From contig JAGAPA010000054.1 of NCBI GenBank assembly GCA_017623455.1, positions 1 to 38,446 of the forward strand: a stretch of DNA of 38,446 bases. The letters are read 5' to 3'. This document shows, piece by piece, positions 3,150-38,446 of the stretch; position 1 is the stretch's first letter, and every line of letters starts with the position of its first letter. Made by a program: the position numbers and the translations under genes. Under the pieces are notes generated by a model. The model did no database searches and was not told where the DNA came from. It saw nothing but the letters and a program-made list of their open reading frames with translations. The stretch comes from Clostridia bacterium. GTDB lineage: Bacteria; Bacillota; Clostridia; Christensenellales; Pumilibacteraceae.

Positions 3150-3355
3150 ATACAAAGGTTGCCTGCGATGTTCGAGTGGCGCATTAATTATAACCGCAAT
3201 TATAATAAGGGATTACTTGTACGCACAAGATATGTCATGCCTAATCTCGCTTTTGCGACATCAGATGGAAGACAGAATATTGTGGTCGGTTCGCCCACCT
3301 GCTTCGGCGGGTTTATAATCTGCGTGAGACGGCATTGCGGGGTATATTTGTATTT
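3150..3355 (+). ncRNA. ssrS: 6S RNA
   Basis: About 205 nt without a sensible ORF between a strong promoter and a terminator. The ends pair: ATACAAA (3150-3156) with TTTGTAT (3347-3353), and CCTGCGATG (3162-3170) with CATTGCGGG (3333-3341). The 5' arm CTGCGATGTTCG and the 3' arm CTGCGTGAGACGGCATTGCGG resemble the conserved GAUGUUCG and CUGCGGCGGCAUCUCG segments of E. coli 6S RNA. A long, poorly paired A/T-rich stretch follows the 5' arm, as expected for the open central bubble that mimics a promoter and sequesters sigma-A RNA polymerase in stationary phase. The call rests on these motifs and the pairing of the ends; it needs a covariance-model search. Confidence 0.8.
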
Positions 3356-3399: not shown

Positions 3400-3860
3400 G
3401 TTGGAATAAGTTTAGATTAAAAATCTAATGGTTGTTGATTGAGATTGCCGCGTCGCTACGCTCCTCGCAATGACATATATTGTTTGATACGTTAAAGGAC
3501 AAAATTGGGAGTGCGCCTTCGCACCGTCACGCTTGCTCGCAATGACAGGCGAATTTTTTATCCAATCCTTCCGTCGACTACGTCGCCACCTTCCTTTGCA
3601 AGGACGGCTTTATGAGGATGATTAGTGGAAGATTTAGTGAGATTGCTTCGCTATCGCTCGCAATGACGTCGAGAGGAAAAACTCGCGGTAGTTGTACCTC
3701 GTTTAGTCATACGGGCGATTCGTGAATCGCCCCTACAAATAGAGTAACTAACAACTGTTGATTGTTCGATTTGCTAAAGGACAAAAATCGGGAGTGCGCC
3801 TTCGCACCGTCACGTTTCCTTTCGGTTTTACCGATTGCCCTTTATTGTTTTTTTATTGGG
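3400..3860. repeat. Repeat cluster 1 (mosaic palindromic modules)
   Basis: No gene. Modules in order: a GATTGCCGCGTCGCTACG..CGCAATGACA unit (3443-3475); linker TTTGATACGTTAAAGGACAA (about 3483-3502) followed by GTGCGCCTTCGCAC (about 3512-3525); a 50-bp unit starting CCAATCCTTCCGTCGAC (3562-3611); a shorter GATTGC..CAATGAC unit (3641-3667); the palindrome GGGCGATTCGTGAATCGCCC (3713-3732); a second linker plus GTGCGCCTTCGCAC; and a 27-bp copy of the 6S terminator (3820-3846). All but the last recur in the clusters at 12302-12796, 14922-15720 and 37975-38446. Confidence 0.85.
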
Positions 3861-5561
3861 TTAAACGTCGCGCTTAGCGAGGATTGCGATGTCGGAAATC
3901 TTGATAGTTTCGTTATCGTTGTCGTATTTACTCGATACAGTTATCTCGATTTTGGTAACTTCGAGCTCTTCGGTTACTGCTATTGCACTACCACCCTGAC
4001 GCATAAACTGCTTCTCTCTGCACACGTTCGCCTCGTCGCAAAGCACGTTTTCTACGCATACTTGCTCTCCGGACGAAAGCGTGTAGACAATCTTGTCTAC
4101 CTTATCGAAAGCATACTTATAGTCGGCGCTGTTGTATACCATAACCGCCTTAACCTTTTGTGCCTTATCAAAAGCAAGCTCAATCTGTGCCGTTTTGTCA
4201 AACTCGGCTTCCTTGTGCCAATCGAACGGCTGAGTGGTAAACAAATCGTCGTTAAGATGCTTTTCTCCGCTAACCGCGTTGCTTACAATCTTAGCGTTCA
4301 TTGCCTTGTTAAGATAGGTTGCGGTAACTCTTGCAACGGGCTGAAGCGAGGTTGTAGGACCGTTACCCATCAAAATATCATAGCCAAGTTCTTCGTTGTA
4401 AACAAAATGCATTTTGTCCACGGCAAGAACTCTGCCCTTAAATCCACCGCCCGGAACGTAAGGTTCTACAGGGTCTTTATGCGCGTGATATACCGCAATA
4501 ATTTCTCCGTCCGCGTATGCAAAGTTATGGTGTCCCGTACCTGCAATATAATCGTTTGTGGAATTAATGCCAAGCGAGGGGTTGCCAACTTCTCTTGCTA
4601 CCTTGTTAAAAGGTCCTAAGGGGTTGTCGGAAACTGCCTGCATAATGGAGTATTCTCTGCTACCGTAGCCAAACGGCGAATACGTAAGGTAATACTTACC
4701 GTTGTGATACGTCATAAACGGTCCTTCGTTTACTCCGCCCTCTCTAATCTCTTCCTCGCCCTTTTCAGCGTCTAACTCTCCGGCTTTTCCGATAACCTGT
4801 TTTACGGACGCATGGGTAAGCTTTGTAAGTGTGGAATAGTCGGGGGTTACGATGTCTTTCATCTTCATTCCGTACACGCAAATACCCTTGTGGTACTTAT
4901 CGCAATGCTTTGCAAAATAGATATAAAGACTGCCGTCGGGCGCCCAGAAGGGACTTACGTCGATAGCCGACCAAGTATGCCCGATATTAAGCTTTTTCTC
5001 AAAATTGATAGTGGGATTAAAGCGCGAAAGAACGTCGCCGTTAAGATTCACACCGCCCGGCATATCCTTGCTGTCCACCATAACGAACGGACCTGCAGGG
5101 GTATCGGAAACTGCGATGGAAAGATACAGTCCGCTCCACATATCCTCTTCGTTTGCGGTGTACTCCGTATTTTCACCTGCAAGCTTGGAGCCTGCGGAAT
5201 AGAAAATATAGAACTTCTTGTCTGCAGGGTTGTAGGTAACCTCGGGCGCCCAGAAAAATCTGTAAGCCCACGCGTCGTCTTCTACCTTAAGACATCCGCC
5301 GTTTTGAGCTTGTCCGATAACCTCCCACGTAGAAAGGTCTTTACTGCGATAGCATTTATATGCCGAAATCTTGTCGCCAACCTCTTCTTTATTGTGAATT
5401 TCACCGGTAAGGTAGATATAGAAATATCCGCCCCACTCTTCGTTCATTTCCTTACTTACCCACAACGCGCCGGGGTCTGCGCAGTTGATAGAATAGTCGT
5501 TCTTATAAAAAAGCGACTTATCGTAACTTTCGATACAATTATCAAAATTAATAGCTTTCAT
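3861..5561 (-). CDS. GH43-like glycosidase, cytoplasmic
   Basis: 566 residues. The first 330 match the five-bladed propeller of glycoside hydrolase family 43 and relatives: base Asp in CADPGALW (D29), pKa-modulating Asp in SAIDVSPFWAPDG (D201) and acid Glu in VNEGPF (E279), plus propeller strand motifs FFWAPEV and YYLTYSPFG. The C-terminal 170 residues (about 395-566) look like a beta-sandwich ending ETIKISDIAILAK, possibly F5/8-type or CBM-like. There is no signal peptide, so it should act on imported oligosaccharides. GH43 members cleave arabinose, xylose or galactose linkages; the specificity here is not readable. Monocistronic, SD AAGGAGG. No terminator was seen behind it; repeat cluster 1 starts there. 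Confidence 0.85.
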   Translation of the reverse strand: MKAINFDNCIESYDKSLFYKNDYSINCADPGALWVSKEMNEEWGGYFYIYLTGEIHNKEEVGDKISAYKCYRSKDLSTWEVIGQAQNGGCLKVEDDAWAYRFFWAPEVTYNPADKKFYIFYSAGSKLAGENTEYTANEEDMWSGLYLSIAVSDTPAGPFVMVDSKDMPGGVNLNGDVLSRFNPTINFEKKLNIGHTWSAIDVSPFWAPDGSLYIYFAKHCDKYHKGICVYGMKMKDIVTPDYSTLTKLTHASVKQVIGKAGELDAEKGEEEIREGGVNEGPFMTYHNGKYYLTYSPFGYGSREYSIMQAVSDNPLGPFNKVAREVGNPSLGINSTNDYIAGTGHHNFAYADGEIIAVYHAHKDPVEPYVPGGGFKGRVLAVDKMHFVYNEELGYDILMGNGPTTSLQPVARVTATYLNKAMNAKIVSNAVSGEKHLNDDLFTTQPFDWHKEAEFDKTAQIELAFDKAQKVKAVMVYNSADYKYAFDKVDKIVYTLSSGEQVCVENVLCDEANVCREKQFMRQGGSAIAVTEELEVTKIEITVSSKYDNDNETIKISDIAILAKRDV

Positions 5562-12250: not shown

Positions 12251-12301
12251 GGATAATTGCCAAAATAGAGATTCGATTATAATTTTGTATTGTTTAAGAT
12301 T

Positions 12302-12796
12302 AGGGATTTTTAGCCAATCCTTCCGTCGACTTCGTCGCCACCTTCCTTTGCAAGGACGGCTTTTGAGCGGTTGGTGCGAAGGCGCACTCCCAAAAACAAA
12401 AGAACCAATGGTGGTTGATTGTTTGCATTACTAAAGGACAATAATGGGTGCAGACCTGTCTGCTGGGCAGACCCACGGTCAATATGGAAAACTAACGGTA
12501 GTTGATTGTTTGATACGTTAAAGGACAATAATTGGATGCAACGTCACGTTGCTTCGTGAATCGCCCGTACATAAAAACTAGTAAAAATTTATTGTTCTTT
12601 TTACTAAAGTACAATAATCGGGGGTACGCCTGTGTGCTTGCATTGCTAAAGCACAATAATTGGGTGTGCGCCTTCGCACCGATTCATGAATCGCCCCTAC
12701 ATAATTACTGACTACACTTAATTATTTGCTTTACTCAAAGAACAACATATTGGATCCAACGTCCACGTTGGTGTGCGCCTCCGCACCACGTTGCTT
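12302..12796. repeat. Repeat cluster 2
   Basis: No gene. Starts with the 50-bp CCAATCCTTCCGTCGAC unit (12314-12363) and an inverted GTGCGAAGGCGCAC (about 12377-12390). Then five linker copies (TTGATTGTTTGATACG.. TAAAGGACAATAATTGG type) near 12415-12447, 12500-12536, 12588-12620, 12636-12664 and 12720-12754. Each is followed by a different palindromic head: GGGCAGACCC-like, GCAACGTCACGTTGC, a degenerate GTACGCCTGTGTGC, GTGCGCCTTCGCAC, and CCAACGTCCACGTTGG. It ends a few bases from the DUF4097 stop codon; no separate terminator is visible for that operon. Confidence 0.8.
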
Positions 12797-14921: not shown

Positions 14922-15720
14922 TCCCTTCCACCGCTATGCGGTCCCCCTCCCCTTGATATACAAGTGGAGGTCTTGAGCGGTTTAGTTTTTAGCCAATCCT
15001 TCCGTCGACTTCGTCGCCACCTTCCTTTGCAAGGACGGCTTTATGAGGATGATTAGTGGGGAATTTATCATAGAGAATGGGTTGTCCTTTTGTTTGTTTA
15101 TAATAAAAAAGGGCGATTCGTGAATCGCCCCTACAGTTAGTTTTAAATTATTGGGATTGCTTCGCTATCGCTCGCAATGACAGGTGGGAAAGGACTAGTG
15201 GTAGTTAATTACTTGCTTTGCTAAAGGACAATAATTGGATGCAACGTCACGTTGCTTCGGGAATCGCCCCTACAAATAGAGTAACTAACAACTGTTGATT
15301 GTTTGTTTTATTAAAACACAATAATCGGGTGTGCGCCTTCGCACCGTCACGTTGCCCGTTGCAAGGACGGCTTTTAAGAGGTTGGGATTGGTGCTCAGGA
15401 GCACTGCCGAGATGAAGGAACTAACGATAGTTGATTGTTTACATTACTAAAGTACAGTAATTGGATGCAACGTCACGTTGCTTCGTGAATCGCCCCCTAC
15501 AAATAGAGTAACTAACGACAGTTGATTATTTGATACGCTAAAGAGCAATTATCGGGTGTGCGCCACGCACCGGCTTTATGAGGATGATTAGTGGGTGTAC
15601 TGTCATTGCGAGGGAATGACATGACCGTGGCAATCTCGTTGTAGTAGAGAATTTATTGGGATTGCCGCGCTATCGCTCGCAATGACGTCGGGGGAGTTAC
15701 TTTATGTAGGGAAGGGGTGC
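14922..15720. repeat. Repeat cluster 3, the longest
   Basis: No gene in about 800 bp. Order: a CCACCGCTATGCGGT..GTGGAGG unit (14922-14972) not seen elsewhere in the window; the 50-bp unit (14993-15042); GGGCGATTC..GAATCGCCC (about 15113-15132); a GATTGC..CAATGACA unit (15155-15182); linker copies near 15195-15236, 15296-15330, 15428-15465 and 15526-15558. The heads are GCAACGTCACGTTGC (twice), GTGCGCCTTCGCAC and a shortened GTGCGCCACGCAC. Two further CATTGCGAG/CTCGCAATG units in opposite orientation (15601-15638 and 15660-15687) close the cluster. Confidence 0.85.
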
Positions 15721-17182: not shown

Positions 17183-17234
17183 TTTTATCTTTACTCCTAT
17201 AAAGTTTTGTGCATTAATTAGTATTTTTTTCTAT

Positions 17235-17280
17235 CTCACGAGGAAAAAGTTTTATATTTCGCAGTATTTTCCTGCTCACG
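17235..17280 (-). repeat. Internally deleted copy of the hpf-tail element
   Basis: Read on the plus strand it has CTCACGAGG at 17235-17243 joined directly to AAAAAGTTTTATATTTCGC..TTTTCC (17244-17272), which matches the right part of the full element at 17343-17372 with one substitution and one T fewer. It shares CTCACG (17275-17280) with the full copy. The middle (about 60 bp) is missing. Confidence 0.65.
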
Positions 17281-17377
17281 AGGAAAATACAAGATAGACG
17301 AACTTTTTTTTAAGGGCGCGTGCAGGTCGCACGTAACCGAAGAAAAAGTTTTGTATTTCGCAGTATTTTTCCGTGAG
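17275..17377 (-). repeat. 103-bp structured inverted-repeat element, copy A
   Basis: Ends two bases from the hpf stop codon. Outer stem CTCACG/CGTGAG plus GGAAAATAC/GTATTTTTCC; second stem AACTTTTT (17301-17308) with AAAAAGTT (17343-17350); central hairpin CGTGC/GCACG (17319-17333). Conserved single-stranded blocks TAAGGGCGC, GTAACCGAA and TGTATTTCG are shared with copy B (34121-34293). No ORF. It could be a transcribed 3'-UTR structure or a MITE-like mobile element. Confidence 0.7.
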
Positions 17378-17379
17378 AA

Positions 17380-17904
17380 TTATTGTCTGGTTTCGATAAG
17401 ACCGTAATCTTTGTCGTTACGCAAGTACAGAACGCAAACGTTTCCGGTTGCTTTGTTCAAGAACACGTAGAAGTCGTGTCCCAAAAGCTCTATCTCTTCG
17501 ATTGCATCGTCCACAGTCATGGGGACAAGGTCGAACACCTTTTCTCTTACTATCTTTTGCTTGGGTATTACCTTAGCCTCTTCAACAGCGTATACGTCAA
17601 GGTCTTTTACGTTACCCTTCTTTGACTTGATTTTGTTGTGATGCTTGATTATCTGCTTTTCGAGCTTGGGCAATACTAAATCGATATTATCGTACATATT
17701 ATCGCCTGACACTTCGCCTCGGATAAAGCAACCCGTAAGATTTACGGTAACTTCCATTGTTTCGATATCCTTGGTTTCTTTGAGAACGACTTTCACCGTT
17801 GTTTCGTTTTCGAAAAACTTGTCAAGTTTGTCGATTTTACGACGGATAATGTCTTTAAGTTTGTCGCTCGCGTTGTAGTTCTTACATAAAAATTCTACTC
17901 TCAT
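17380..17904 (-). CDS. hpf: Ribosome hibernation promoting factor, long form
   Basis: 174 residues. The N-terminal domain (1-95, MRVEFLCKNYNASDKLKDII.. KVVLKETKDIETMEVTV) has the S30AE/YfiA beta-alpha fold. After a linker, the C-terminal domain (about 118-174, REKVFDLVPMTVDDAIEEIE.. DYGLIETR) is the dimerisation domain that joins two 70S ribosomes into 100S particles in stationary phase. Both parts are intact, and the long form is standard in Firmicutes. Own promoter; SD AAAGGGGG. The 3' end is followed immediately by the structured element (copy A) instead of a simple terminator. No raiA-motif RNA was recognised upstream. Confidence 0.95.
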   Translation of the reverse strand: MRVEFLCKNYNASDKLKDIIRRKIDKLDKFFENETTVKVVLKETKDIETMEVTVNLTGCFIRGEVSGDNMYDNIDLVLPKLEKQIIKHHNKIKSKKGNVKDLDVYAVEEAKVIPKQKIVREKVFDLVPMTVDDAIEEIELLGHDFYVFLNKATGNVCVLYLRNDKDYGLIETRQ

Positions 17905-23799: not shown

Positions 23800-23814
23800 A
23801 TTTATTGTCCTCCT

Positions 23815-24102
23815 GTGGGGCAGACCCCACTGTCATAATAGTAATTTAGCGTTTTAGTATTTACTTGATTATTTAGTGCTTTTAGACAAATTGCCTTTAT
23901 TGCTTTTTTGGGGGGCAGACCCCACTGTCGATATTTGTCAATCACGTTTATTGTTTTTTATACGTCTTATAAGTTCTTTTACTGTATTTATATTTACTTG
24001 CTCTTTTTTTGGGGCAGACCCCACTGTCAATATTGTAATTTAGTGTTTTAGTATTTACTTGATTAAACGGTATCAATTATTGGGTGCACGCCTGTGTGCC
24101 AT
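23815..24102. repeat. Repeat cluster 4, inside the ctsR-mcsA operon
   Basis: Fills the whole gap between the ctsR stop and the mcsA SD. Three hairpins of GGGGCAGACCCC (23816-23828, 23912-23923, 24011-24022) each run into ACTGTC. The first and third are followed by a shared 46-bp tract ending GTATTTACTTGATTA (ends near 23874 and 24064). The end near ctsR has a degenerate linker (CAATTATTGGGTGCACGCC at 24073-24091), like those of clusters 1, 2, 3 and 5. No ORF. Confidence 0.85.
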
Positions 24103-34120: not shown

Positions 34121-34293
34121 GGCTATGTCACAACAAATGGTTGATAAATATTATTATGTTTTGACGAGAAAAACACAAGAAAGACAAGTGTTCTTGTAAG
34201 GGCGCATACTTGCAAAGTCTGTAACCGAACAAAACACGCTGTATTTCGTAGCGGCTTTTCAGTCAAATATAAACCTACTGTTGTGTCAGAGCC
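34121..34293 (-). repeat. 173-bp structured inverted-repeat element, copy B
   Basis: Terminal inverted repeats GGCTATGTCACAACA (34121-34135) and TGTTGTGTCAGAGCC (34279-34293) match at 13 of 15; a further imperfect inverted match continues through TTTGAC..AAAA. The inner 100 bp aligns with copy A: CACAAGAAAGAC, TAAGGGCGC, GTAACCGAA and TGTATTTCG. The second stem is GTGTT (34188-34192) with AACAC (34233-34237), where copy A has AACTTTTT/AAAAAGTT. It ends 8 bp from the stop codon of the DMT transporter gene, in the same orientation as copy A to hpf. Confidence 0.7.
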
Positions 34294-34301
34294 TTTTATT
34301 T

Positions 34302-35171
34302 TTATACAGACAAAAGCACGGTTGCAATTATGCCCAAGCCTATACCTATCCATTGCCACCACTTAAGTTTTTCTTTGAAAACAAATAGTGAGAATATGCT
34401 TATCGCCATAAGCGTACACACGGATATAACAGGAAATCTGACGGACGCGGGAATAATTTCGGATGTTGCAAGAATGATATTAAAGGTGTTTATTACAAGA
34501 TTGCTTACACCCGAAATAATCGGAAAATGCACTGCCTTTTTAAGCATTAGCTTTGTATCTGTTTTATCGCTTCTGATATAATTTATGATAATAACGATAA
34601 GAGCAAGTGCGGTAGCGAAAAACATAAACATATCGCCGTGATTACCGCCAAAATCCTTTTGTTGCTGAGCTTGAGAAATTACGCAAGCAGCGTTTCCGAC
34701 AAATGCAAGCGTCATAAATATCGCCCACTTTATCGTTATTTTTTGTTCACTCTTTTTGCCAGTAAATAAGCACAATGCAATAGATACAGCCGTTAGAACT
34801 ATGCCTATTATTACAAATACGGTCAGCGGTTCACCCCAAAATATCAAGCCCCAAATACCGGACACAACCAAAGACAGGTTGATAAATAAATTTGTAAGCA
34901 TTATCGGGCCTATTTTGAGCGCAATTATAAGCGCGGAAATTGCTACTGCATACCCTACAGCAAAGATTGCAATATACGGAAAAACCGCTACGTCAAACGA
35001 CGGATTTATTGCGTACTTTATTCCCCATCCAAGAACCACAACCGACACCAAGATGAGATTATAAAACGCGGACGTGTCTTTTTTTCCATCGGTTTTACGA
35101 TTGAAAAAGCTTCCGCTTAAACTATATATTATATTCAGTACCGTTACAGATATCAGATAAAAATAATCCAT
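34302..35171 (-). CDS. DMT superfamily (EamA-like) transporter
   Basis: 289 residues from MDYFYLISVTVLNIIYSLSG; this ATG has CGGAG eight nt before and a promoter upstream, and the longer in-frame start at 35240 lies on the -35 box. About ten membrane helices in two halves (EamA-like repeats); PIMLTNLFINLSLVVSGIWGL and IIPASVRFPVISVCTLMAIS are the paired helix 3-4 regions, followed by WGEP and FKEKLKWWQWIG, as in DMT proteins. Substrate unknown (amino acid, sugar or nucleotide-type metabolites). Downstream sits the copy B element rather than a simple terminator. Confidence 0.85.
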   Translation of the reverse strand: MDYFYLISVTVLNIIYSLSGSFFNRKTDGKKDTSAFYNLILVSVVVLGWGIKYAINPSFDVAVFPYIAIFAVGYAVAISALIIALKIGPIMLTNLFINLSLVVSGIWGLIFWGEPLTVFVIIGIVLTAVSIALCLFTGKKSEQKITIKWAIFMTLAFVGNAACVISQAQQQKDFGGNHGDMFMFFATALALIVIIINYIRSDKTDTKLMLKKAVHFPIISGVSNLVINTFNIILATSEIIPASVRFPVISVCTLMAISIFSLFVFKEKLKWWQWIGIGLGIIATVLLSV

Positions 35172-35211
35172 TGCGTTGCTCCGTTTTTTGCTGTTTTTTG
35201 TATGCTTTAAT

Positions 35212-35240
35212 GTTATATACCAATCAATATTAAAAGTCAA
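35212..35240 (-). promoter_or_regulatory. Promoter of DMT transporter gene
   Basis: Minus strand: TTGACT (35240-35235), 17-nt spacer, TATAAC (35217-35212). Confidence 0.7.
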
Positions 35241-37974: not shown

Positions 37975-38446
37975 TTCATTTGTAGGAAAGGGGCTGTCCT
38001 TCCATGTTTTTAGGGATGTGAAAAAGGGCGGTGCGCAGGCGCACTCCCAATATAGGGAATTAGCGGTAGTTGATTGAGATTGCTTCGTCGCTACACTCCT
38101 CGCAATGACAAAAGGATTGAAAGACTATCAGTGGGCTGACCCACTCTCGATATGGGGAATTAGCGATAGTTTGTTGAGATTGCCACATCGCTACGCTCCT
38201 CGCAATGACGTATATTGTTTGATACATTAAAGGACAATAATTGGATGCAACGTCACGTTGCCTTGATTTTCAAATGGGAATTTTATGTGTCGGTTTGGTG
38301 CTTCGGAGAAAATTTCGGGCGATTCGTGAATCGCCCCTACAGTATATGAAGAACTATTAGGTTTGATTGCTTGCTTTATGGAAGAACAATTGCGGATACA
38401 AGATCACGTTGCAAAACGGGTCAAATGCGAGTTAGAGAAAAAAAAG
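37975..38446. repeat. Repeat cluster 5, cut by window edge
   Basis: Modules: inverted GTGCGCAGGCGCAC (about 38031-38044); two GATTGC..CGCAATGAC units (38078-38110 and 38178-38210); GTGGGCTGACCCAC between them (about 38131-38144); a linker near 38215-38245 with head GCAACGTCACGTTGC; GGGCGATTCGTGAATCGCCC (about 38317-38336); then a degenerate linker ending at GATCACGTTGC. No ORF. Confidence 0.8.

Follow-up and report, generated by a model that had tools for sequence, protein, structure and literature searches.

Two stretches of a clostridial genome, here called copy A and copy B, lie at the ends of two protein-coding genes and carry a similar predicted hairpin. Are they regulatory RNAs of the genes that they follow, or elements that settle at gene ends? 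Both possibilities were raised by an earlier reading of the letters (the sequence-only reading), which took A and B to be two copies of one element under selection for structure. The window, meaning the whole stretch of DNA that was analysed, comprises 38,446 nucleotides of a Clostridia bacterium (Pumilibacteraceae; GCA_017623455.1, contig JAGAPA010000054.1, positions 1-38,446, forward strand). The genome to which it belongs is assembled in 96 contigs totalling 2.40 Mb and is 77.6% complete.

Two palindromic elements with a common hairpin core

Much of the earlier description is borne out. The shared blocks occur in A and B in the same order and at similar spacing, and the extent given for copy B is exact (Table 1). 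The block TAAGGGCGC is found at 17311 and 34197 (0.38 occurrences expected in the window, at least two in 6 of 100 shuffles), and GTAACCGAA is found at 17333, 34221 and an unrelated site, 3969 (0.44 expected in the window, at least three in 1 of 100 shuffles). A single shared block is weak evidence; the common order and similar spacing of the blocks in A and B are not. The proposed compensating arms, which are AACTTTTT/AAAAAGTT and CGTGC/GCACG in A and GTGTT/AACAC and ACTT/AAGT in B, all pair in the minimum-energy folds of the + strand, and the longer terminal inverted repeats ascribed to B match at 13 of 15 positions. Both elements are indeed close to stop codons, with the right end of A touching that of hpf (17380-17382) and the right end of B lying 8 nucleotides from that of a transporter gene (34302-34304). 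They also have the same orientation relative to the preceding gene, which in each case is encoded on the - strand. A and B are not, however, two copies of one element: their ends and flanking duplications differ, and what they have in common is a hairpin core.

Table 1. Positions in the window of the two elements, their parts and the adjoining genes
Feature	Position	Strand	Basis or remark
Copy A, 159-bp insertion at the hpf stop codon	17221..17379	+	Absent in sister species G001
Copy A hairpin core, tip GGGCGC (17314-17319) ... GTAACCGA (17333-17340)	17300..17352	+	Model R1, folding z-score
TTA, left flanking duplication of copy A	17218..17220	.	Empty-site comparison; neighbouring A differs, exact boundary uncertain
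TTA (the TAA stop codon of hpf), right flanking duplication of copy A	17380..17382	.	Empty-site comparison
hpf before copy A, ribosome hibernation factor (Ribosomal_S30AE and C-terminal domain)	17380..17904	-	Pfam PF02482 6.8e-19, PF16321 2.3e-23
Copy B, 173-bp MITE (palindromic, non-autonomous)	34121..34293	+	Multi-copy, target duplications
Copy B left terminal inverted repeat GGCTATGTCACAACA	34121..34135	+	Present elsewhere in own genome
Copy B hairpin core, tip GGGCGC (34200-34205) ... GTAACCGA (34221-34228)	34186..34240	+	Covariance model R1
Copy B right terminal inverted repeat GGCTCTGACACAACA	34279..34293	-	13/15 against left repeat
EamA/DMT transporter gene before copy B	34302..35240	-	Pfam PF00892 2.4e-10

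The insertion of copy A at the end of hpf produced a TTA/TAA duplication, which left the TAA stop of that gene intact. In G001, a species of the same genus whose hpf protein is 99% identical, the insertion is missing and the flanks align at 97.5% (121 nucleotides) and 94.1% (221 nucleotides). The filled site reads TTA-[159 bp]-TTA, with the second TTA being the hpf stop, so that 162 bp including one TTA are absent from G001. The empty site is one base off a clean excision, and could alternatively be a deletion in G001. The insert consists of one full hairpin (about 17275-17377) and a shorter adjoining hairpin that has no tip; by eye, its ends do not pair cleanly and the hairpin arms begin further in. 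Against shuffled sequences, copy A folds with a z-score of -4.13 on the + strand and -1.81 on the - strand. Its core scores 49.1 bits (E 1.1e-12) with covariance model R1, whose training set included copy A itself.

Copy B belongs to the class of miniature inverted-repeat elements (MITEs), with many near-identical copies, inverted repeats and duplications of fixed length. A 201-bp query retrieves 19 further copies from its own genome, each 96-99% identical across 139 bp or more; contig ends truncate 14 of these. With copy B included, there are 20 copies. The terminal inverted repeats recur in the same genome and in G001, where a sister family is present and the left repeat has one change (GGCTATGTCACAAAA). 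Thirteen complete members could be compared at both flanks: six of 173 bp and six relatives of 263-350 bp from the own genome, plus the 171-bp member from G001. Five of the 13 (one of the six 173-bp copies, three of the six longer relatives and the G001 copy) are flanked by a perfect target duplication of 8 bp, a raw count taken in flanks of 88-100% A+T, in which eight matches of eight would arise by chance at about 1/256 each if the flanks were pure A+T (by arithmetic). The flanks of copy B itself agree at five of eight positions. The sequence-only reading held that exact target duplications would mark a plain MITE; because such duplications exist, this applies to the family of copy B. The core of copy B scores 46.5 bits (E 8.7e-12) with model R1, the training set of which included a B-type core from the own genome (L001), and it folds only marginally better than shuffles (z -1.72 for either strand; 11 of 200 shuffles folded equally well).

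The longer relatives of copy B share its outer 95 bases and differ in the middle. Loci L042-L050 of the own genome hold copy B relatives that are mostly longer (263-350 bp where both ends were found), and whose centre contains another repeat, GTACGCAGGCGTACTCCCAATATT, so that repeats are nested. Other dispersed repeat families with small GC-rich hairpins form intergenic clusters in the window at 3434-3820, 12300-12740, 14986-15690, 23801-24100 and 38020-38368, examples being GTGCGCCTTCGCACC, GGGCGATTCGTGAATCGCCCCTACA and GATTGC...GCAATGAC. A 6S RNA at 3157-3347 (51.9 bits, above the Rfam threshold) is near these repeats.

Structure, strand and placement of the hairpin tip

On the + strand, the tips of A and B have the form GGGCGC-stem-loop-stem-GTAACCGA. 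In order, the parts are a stem, a GA/GA-type mismatch, GG/CC, a GC/AA mismatch, a short stem of GCGTAC/GTACGT and a small loop; in B the short stem is ATAC.../...GTCTGT. Further out, clostridial members share a second internal loop in which AAGACAAGG is opposite ACGCNGTATT, and the strands of this loop seem to be swapped between the arms in members from Thiodiazotropha and Family XIII (both by eye). Arms have diverged far more than tips.

Selection for structure, which two sequences such as A and B are insufficient to establish, is supported by covariation across 69 cores (alignment A2, made from 73 non-redundant cores after L058, L060, L073 and L229 were left out as likely chance matches). 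The covariation score of these 69 cores is 0.369, compared with 0.136 +/- 0.011 in shuffles, none of which scored as high in 500, and with a maximum of 0.196 when partners were slid. Cells changed on both sides number 257 versus 124 +/- 10 (again 0 of 500 shuffles as high), and 78.3% of cells are paired over the whole structure versus 63.9 +/- 1.0% in shuffles; the number of pair types in the 69 cores is not above shuffles (51 versus 49.9). The outer stem, which no search pattern fixed, covaries. The invariance of the tip is partly a matter of ascertainment, because the search pattern fixed 20 tip bases. Among 13 model-found variants inspected in the own genome, four have changed on both strands, from GGGCGC/GTAACC to GGGAGC/GTGACC. 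One-sided variants also occur there (GGGCAC or GGGTGC with GTAACC, and GGGCGC with GCAACC), as do decayed forms.

The two strands are not equivalent. Comparing RNA energies for the 97 of 125 hairpins left after removal of near-duplicates, we find that folding favours the + strand over the - strand in 92, and in 78 of the 97 when the tip is removed and only the arms are folded. The mean difference is -4.5 kcal/mol, as against -1.3 with shuffled arms. Copy B, unlike the majority, exhibits no strand difference in folding. At Rfam 15 gathering thresholds, A, B and L041 match no family, and neither do the hairpins of 16 loci from other taxa; elsewhere in the stretches searched, only 6S and 5S RNAs exceed their thresholds, two 5S rRNAs coming from the 16 loci. 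Matches obtained on A, B and a third copy at a lax threshold were rejected, all being far below the thresholds of their families.

Stop codons lie near the tip mainly on its 3' side. Across 175 places outside the own genome, a stop codon lies within 90 nucleotides of the tip in 65 cases on the 3' side and 10 on the 5' side, and a start codon in 17 and 14, respectively. In the own genome, a complete 3' gene is available for 13 of 14 non-B places (two tandem pairs included), and all 13 genes end towards the hairpin, 10 of them within 90 nucleotides. B-type copies resemble these on the 3' side, where 11 of 12 genes end towards the copy, and are mixed on the 5' side, where seven genes start and five end towards it; stop codons within 90 nucleotides number five and three, respectively. 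Related copies were not fully removed from these counts, so that a p-value drawn from them is optimistic, and the pattern misses some tip variants of the own genome. Because stop codons are far commoner on the 3' side, the folded strand usually runs antisense to the preceding gene, clearly so for non-B elements, and this orientation bias may in part reflect the location of genes on the leading strand. The alternative of random placement with decayed arms is not the pattern found, though some decayed copies are present.

Tips also occur in other contexts. In a Family XIII clostridium, tandem hairpins of the tip class immediately precede apparent rpsL and rpsG genes (L199, 1500-2760; names assigned by eye), and a tip hairpin precedes a gene that reads as guaB (also by eye). 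At L168, a copy of the tip (1724-1751) is beside a 5S rRNA, after the apparent end of a 23S rRNA recognised by eye.

Distribution and mobility

The tip element is rare and patchy. A pattern for the ends of the A/B tip has matches in 17 of 41 genomes (own included), compared with two matches in all for the reversed pattern; several matches in the more distant genomes are stemless and look like chance. In a scan of one genome for each of 84,980 species with 20 fixed tip bases, at least 116 stretches were found where about four would be expected by chance (257 Gb x 2 strands x 8 gap lengths / 4^20, by arithmetic). Among the matches listed, those on the side of the Clostridia include Christensenella hongkongensis and Pumilibacter muris, and others come from Bacteroidaceae, Alistipes, Thiodiazotropha, Dyella, Arenicella, a betaproteobacterium, Alphaproteobacteria, Rickettsiales, Bdellovibrionaceae, Campylobacter showae and Verrucomicrobiales. 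Many copies with common ends are present in Clostridia, Thiodiazotropha and Bacteroidaceae, which represent three phyla. Several other taxa have a single long hairpin each, so the claim of mobility is limited to the multi-copy groups, and some single matches (Paenibacillus) look like chance. The pattern has no match in a viral collection. When 398 genomes were sampled from the phylum of the window, leaving out the rest of its family, only the own genome matched, and a control pattern gave no match.

Within the family, 27 of 61 genomes (own included) are positive and copy number ranges from 0 to 53. It differs even within a genus, with 23 copies in G011 and 0 in its congener G041. The own genome, G013, L145 and L217 contain tandem arrays, the periods of which are 107-148 bp. 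The arrays at L217 (3400-3947, period 148 bp) and L145 (6976-7222, 110 bp) reach or approach contig ends, and their lengths are lower bounds.

Elements with the same tip have different ends. Those of Thiodiazotropha end in GGGCC[TG]CGG and are flanked on both sides by identical TTA or TAA in seven of eight copies, and those of Bacteroidaceae end in GAAGCTGTTTAAAT and are so flanked in four of the seven copies for which both ends were found (11 loci tried). Two copies in G013 lie between direct repeats, of 11 and 9 bp. Around 146 instances, direct repeats of at least 9 bp number 34 compared with about 7 expected, several of which are tandem neighbours rather than target duplications. The differing ends and duplication lengths suggest that different transposases probably act around the same tip, and flanking duplications of MITE types, those of 8 bp included, we take to point to DDE transposases.

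Candidate helpers do not track the element. Y1_Tnp matches are found in six of 10 copy-rich genomes (two of them below the cut-off and one with fragments only) and in five of 12 copy-free genomes, and the domain is absent from G002, G006, G022 and G062, which carry 35, 14, 20 and 11 copies, respectively, and are 87-94% complete. RVT_1 is found in four of 10 copy-rich and three of 12 copy-free genomes. These were the two families searched for; inspection by eye of the 30 largest clusters of 1015 proteins from the fetched loci revealed no helper transposase, the largest cluster (17 loci) reading like ABC ATPases. In G013, a tip match on contig C43 (4189-4241) is about 200 bp from a reverse transcriptase domain (4448-5008), which may be chance, since that genome has 53 copies.

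Explanations and relation to known systems

A and B are very likely mobile palindromic elements, and they are probably non-autonomous palindromes of MITE type that are moved in trans and bear a strand-specific tip. Transposases supplied in trans would move them, and the + strand of the tip, folded as single-stranded DNA or RNA, would be bound by a factor that aids the spread or the tolerance of the element. Where an insertion at a gene end places the folded strand antisense to the gene, it might survive because the reading frame is spared and the active strand is kept out of the mRNA. A strand-specific hairpin with a trans-acting factor is favoured, being consistent with the mismatches, with the asymmetry between strands and with the bias in orientation. 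We regard a strand-specific function of the tip itself as somewhat likely, and whether the active form would be folded single-stranded DNA rather than RNA is an even call.

The proposal that such hairpins are 3'-UTR regulators or built-in terminators, co-transcribed with the preceding gene and controlling its termination or mRNA decay, gains from their placement directly behind stop codons, from the fact that the - strand folds too, and from two pairs of near-identical own-genome copies that have the A-tract...T-tract ends typical of bidirectional terminators. Hairpins of like kind, with the tip altered (G013) or the hairpin shortened and the tip altered or missing (G006), were also seen by eye behind hpf, although among 30 hpf loci (36 genomes have hpf) only the own genome gives a match to model R1. 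The proposal is nonetheless improbable. It is the antisense strand that folds better, copy A is missing from the closest sister species, copy number varies as described, and no common function is evident among neighbouring genes: beyond a few loci no family recurs, and clusters of the 296 neighbour proteins have six members at most. A minority of tips occur before genes or beside 5S rRNA; 17 of the 175 places have a gene start within 90 nucleotides on the 3' side. Hairpin ends show no overall enrichment of T or A runs (6 and 20 of 114, compared with 14 and 17 at control ends), with the hairpin ends poorly defined because the minimum-energy fold overextends them. The regulatory RNA of the preceding gene that the sequence-only reading entertained is not supported; the other suggestion of that reading, an element at gene ends, agrees with the stop-codon counts.

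An identity as REP- or REPIN-like elements, in which a Y1 (HUH) transposase of the RAYT/TnpA-REP type mobilises single-stranded hairpins, is a more remote prospect still. REPINs, in the available text of PMC3116915, are likewise multi-copy, extragenic, strand-specific hairpins with compensatory changes, and the GC/AA mismatch of the tip recalls the conserved AA-GC stem mismatch of Escherichia coli REPs, which, in the available text of PMC8266576, is required by the transposase and abolishes activity when repaired. Some Y1_Tnp match exists in six of 10 copy-rich genomes, but its absence from the other four and its presence in five of 12 copy-free genomes, in assemblies that are incomplete, argue against dependence on it. 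The conserved part of the element is moreover its tip and not its ends, and its MITE-type flanking duplications presumably reflect DDE transposases.

Alternatively, the tip might be common only through horizontal passage of one hairpin that was captured by different transposon ends, and be functionless, with its conservation an artefact of the search. Invariance among matches to a pattern that fixed 20 tip bases is ascertainment, model-found copies of the own genome vary more and include one-sided changes, and the distribution is patchy. This explanation is unlikely, however, as outer stems that no pattern fixed covary, model matches missed by the patterns keep most of the tip and in some cases change both strands together, and the arms have diverged much more than the tips. 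Function rather than descent or exchange may account for the common tip. Extending the preferred reading, of trans-mobilised palindromes with a strand-specific tip, one could suppose a selfish hairpin module that sits at the centres of MITEs served by unrelated transposases in at least three phyla, and whose folded + strand recruits a conserved host factor. Such a factor might belong to replication, or be RNA polymerase or an RNA-binding protein, and unrelated mobile elements would repeatedly acquire the tip. This extension is doubtful, the more so because multi-copy tip elements are shown in three phyla rather than six and the mismatch of the tip does not change only as a set.

MITEs are usually distinguished by their ends, and their centres pass for filler; in the present elements it is the centre that varies least. 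Its recurrence across different ends, duplication lengths and distant bacteria predicts a binding partner common to the hosts, which would make the success of bacterial palindromic repeats directly testable. The case also cautions against automatically reading covariation beside a stop codon as the sign of an RNA that regulates the gene. Among the matches listed in full-text searches with tip fragments there was no relevant title, and topic searches returned papers on MITEs, REPs and REPINs and nothing on the tip.

The rod-like hairpin, internal loops and covarying stems resemble those of Rfam structured RNAs, with the difference that no family matches at threshold. The attC sites of integrons are imperfect hairpins directly behind stop codons, with an active strand that is antisense to the gene and a structure kept in preference to sequence. 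The tip elements are alike in these three respects, and differ in that the known core boxes were not noticed and that copies in the fetched loci are dispersed or in tandem rather than in gene cassettes. From REP, BIME and REPIN elements with their TnpA-REP (RAYT) transposases, they are distinguished by a conserved centre instead of conserved ends and by Y1 transposases that do not track them. Compared with a REP sequence, AA and GC are on opposite arms, and no GTAG-type tag was noticed by eye beside the palindrome in the listed flanks. With bacterial MITEs, as the available text on ERIC/RU-1 (PMC2759123) and Thiomargarita (PMC4853749) describes them, they have in common a size of 100-400 bp, terminal inverted repeats, target duplications, multiple copies, a long hairpin and no transposase gene. 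They differ from these MITEs in having one central mismatched tip common to elements with different ends and duplication lengths, and an orientation bias relative to the adjoining gene. What is new here is an element of the MITE or REP kind whose centre, and not its ends, is common to several phyla.
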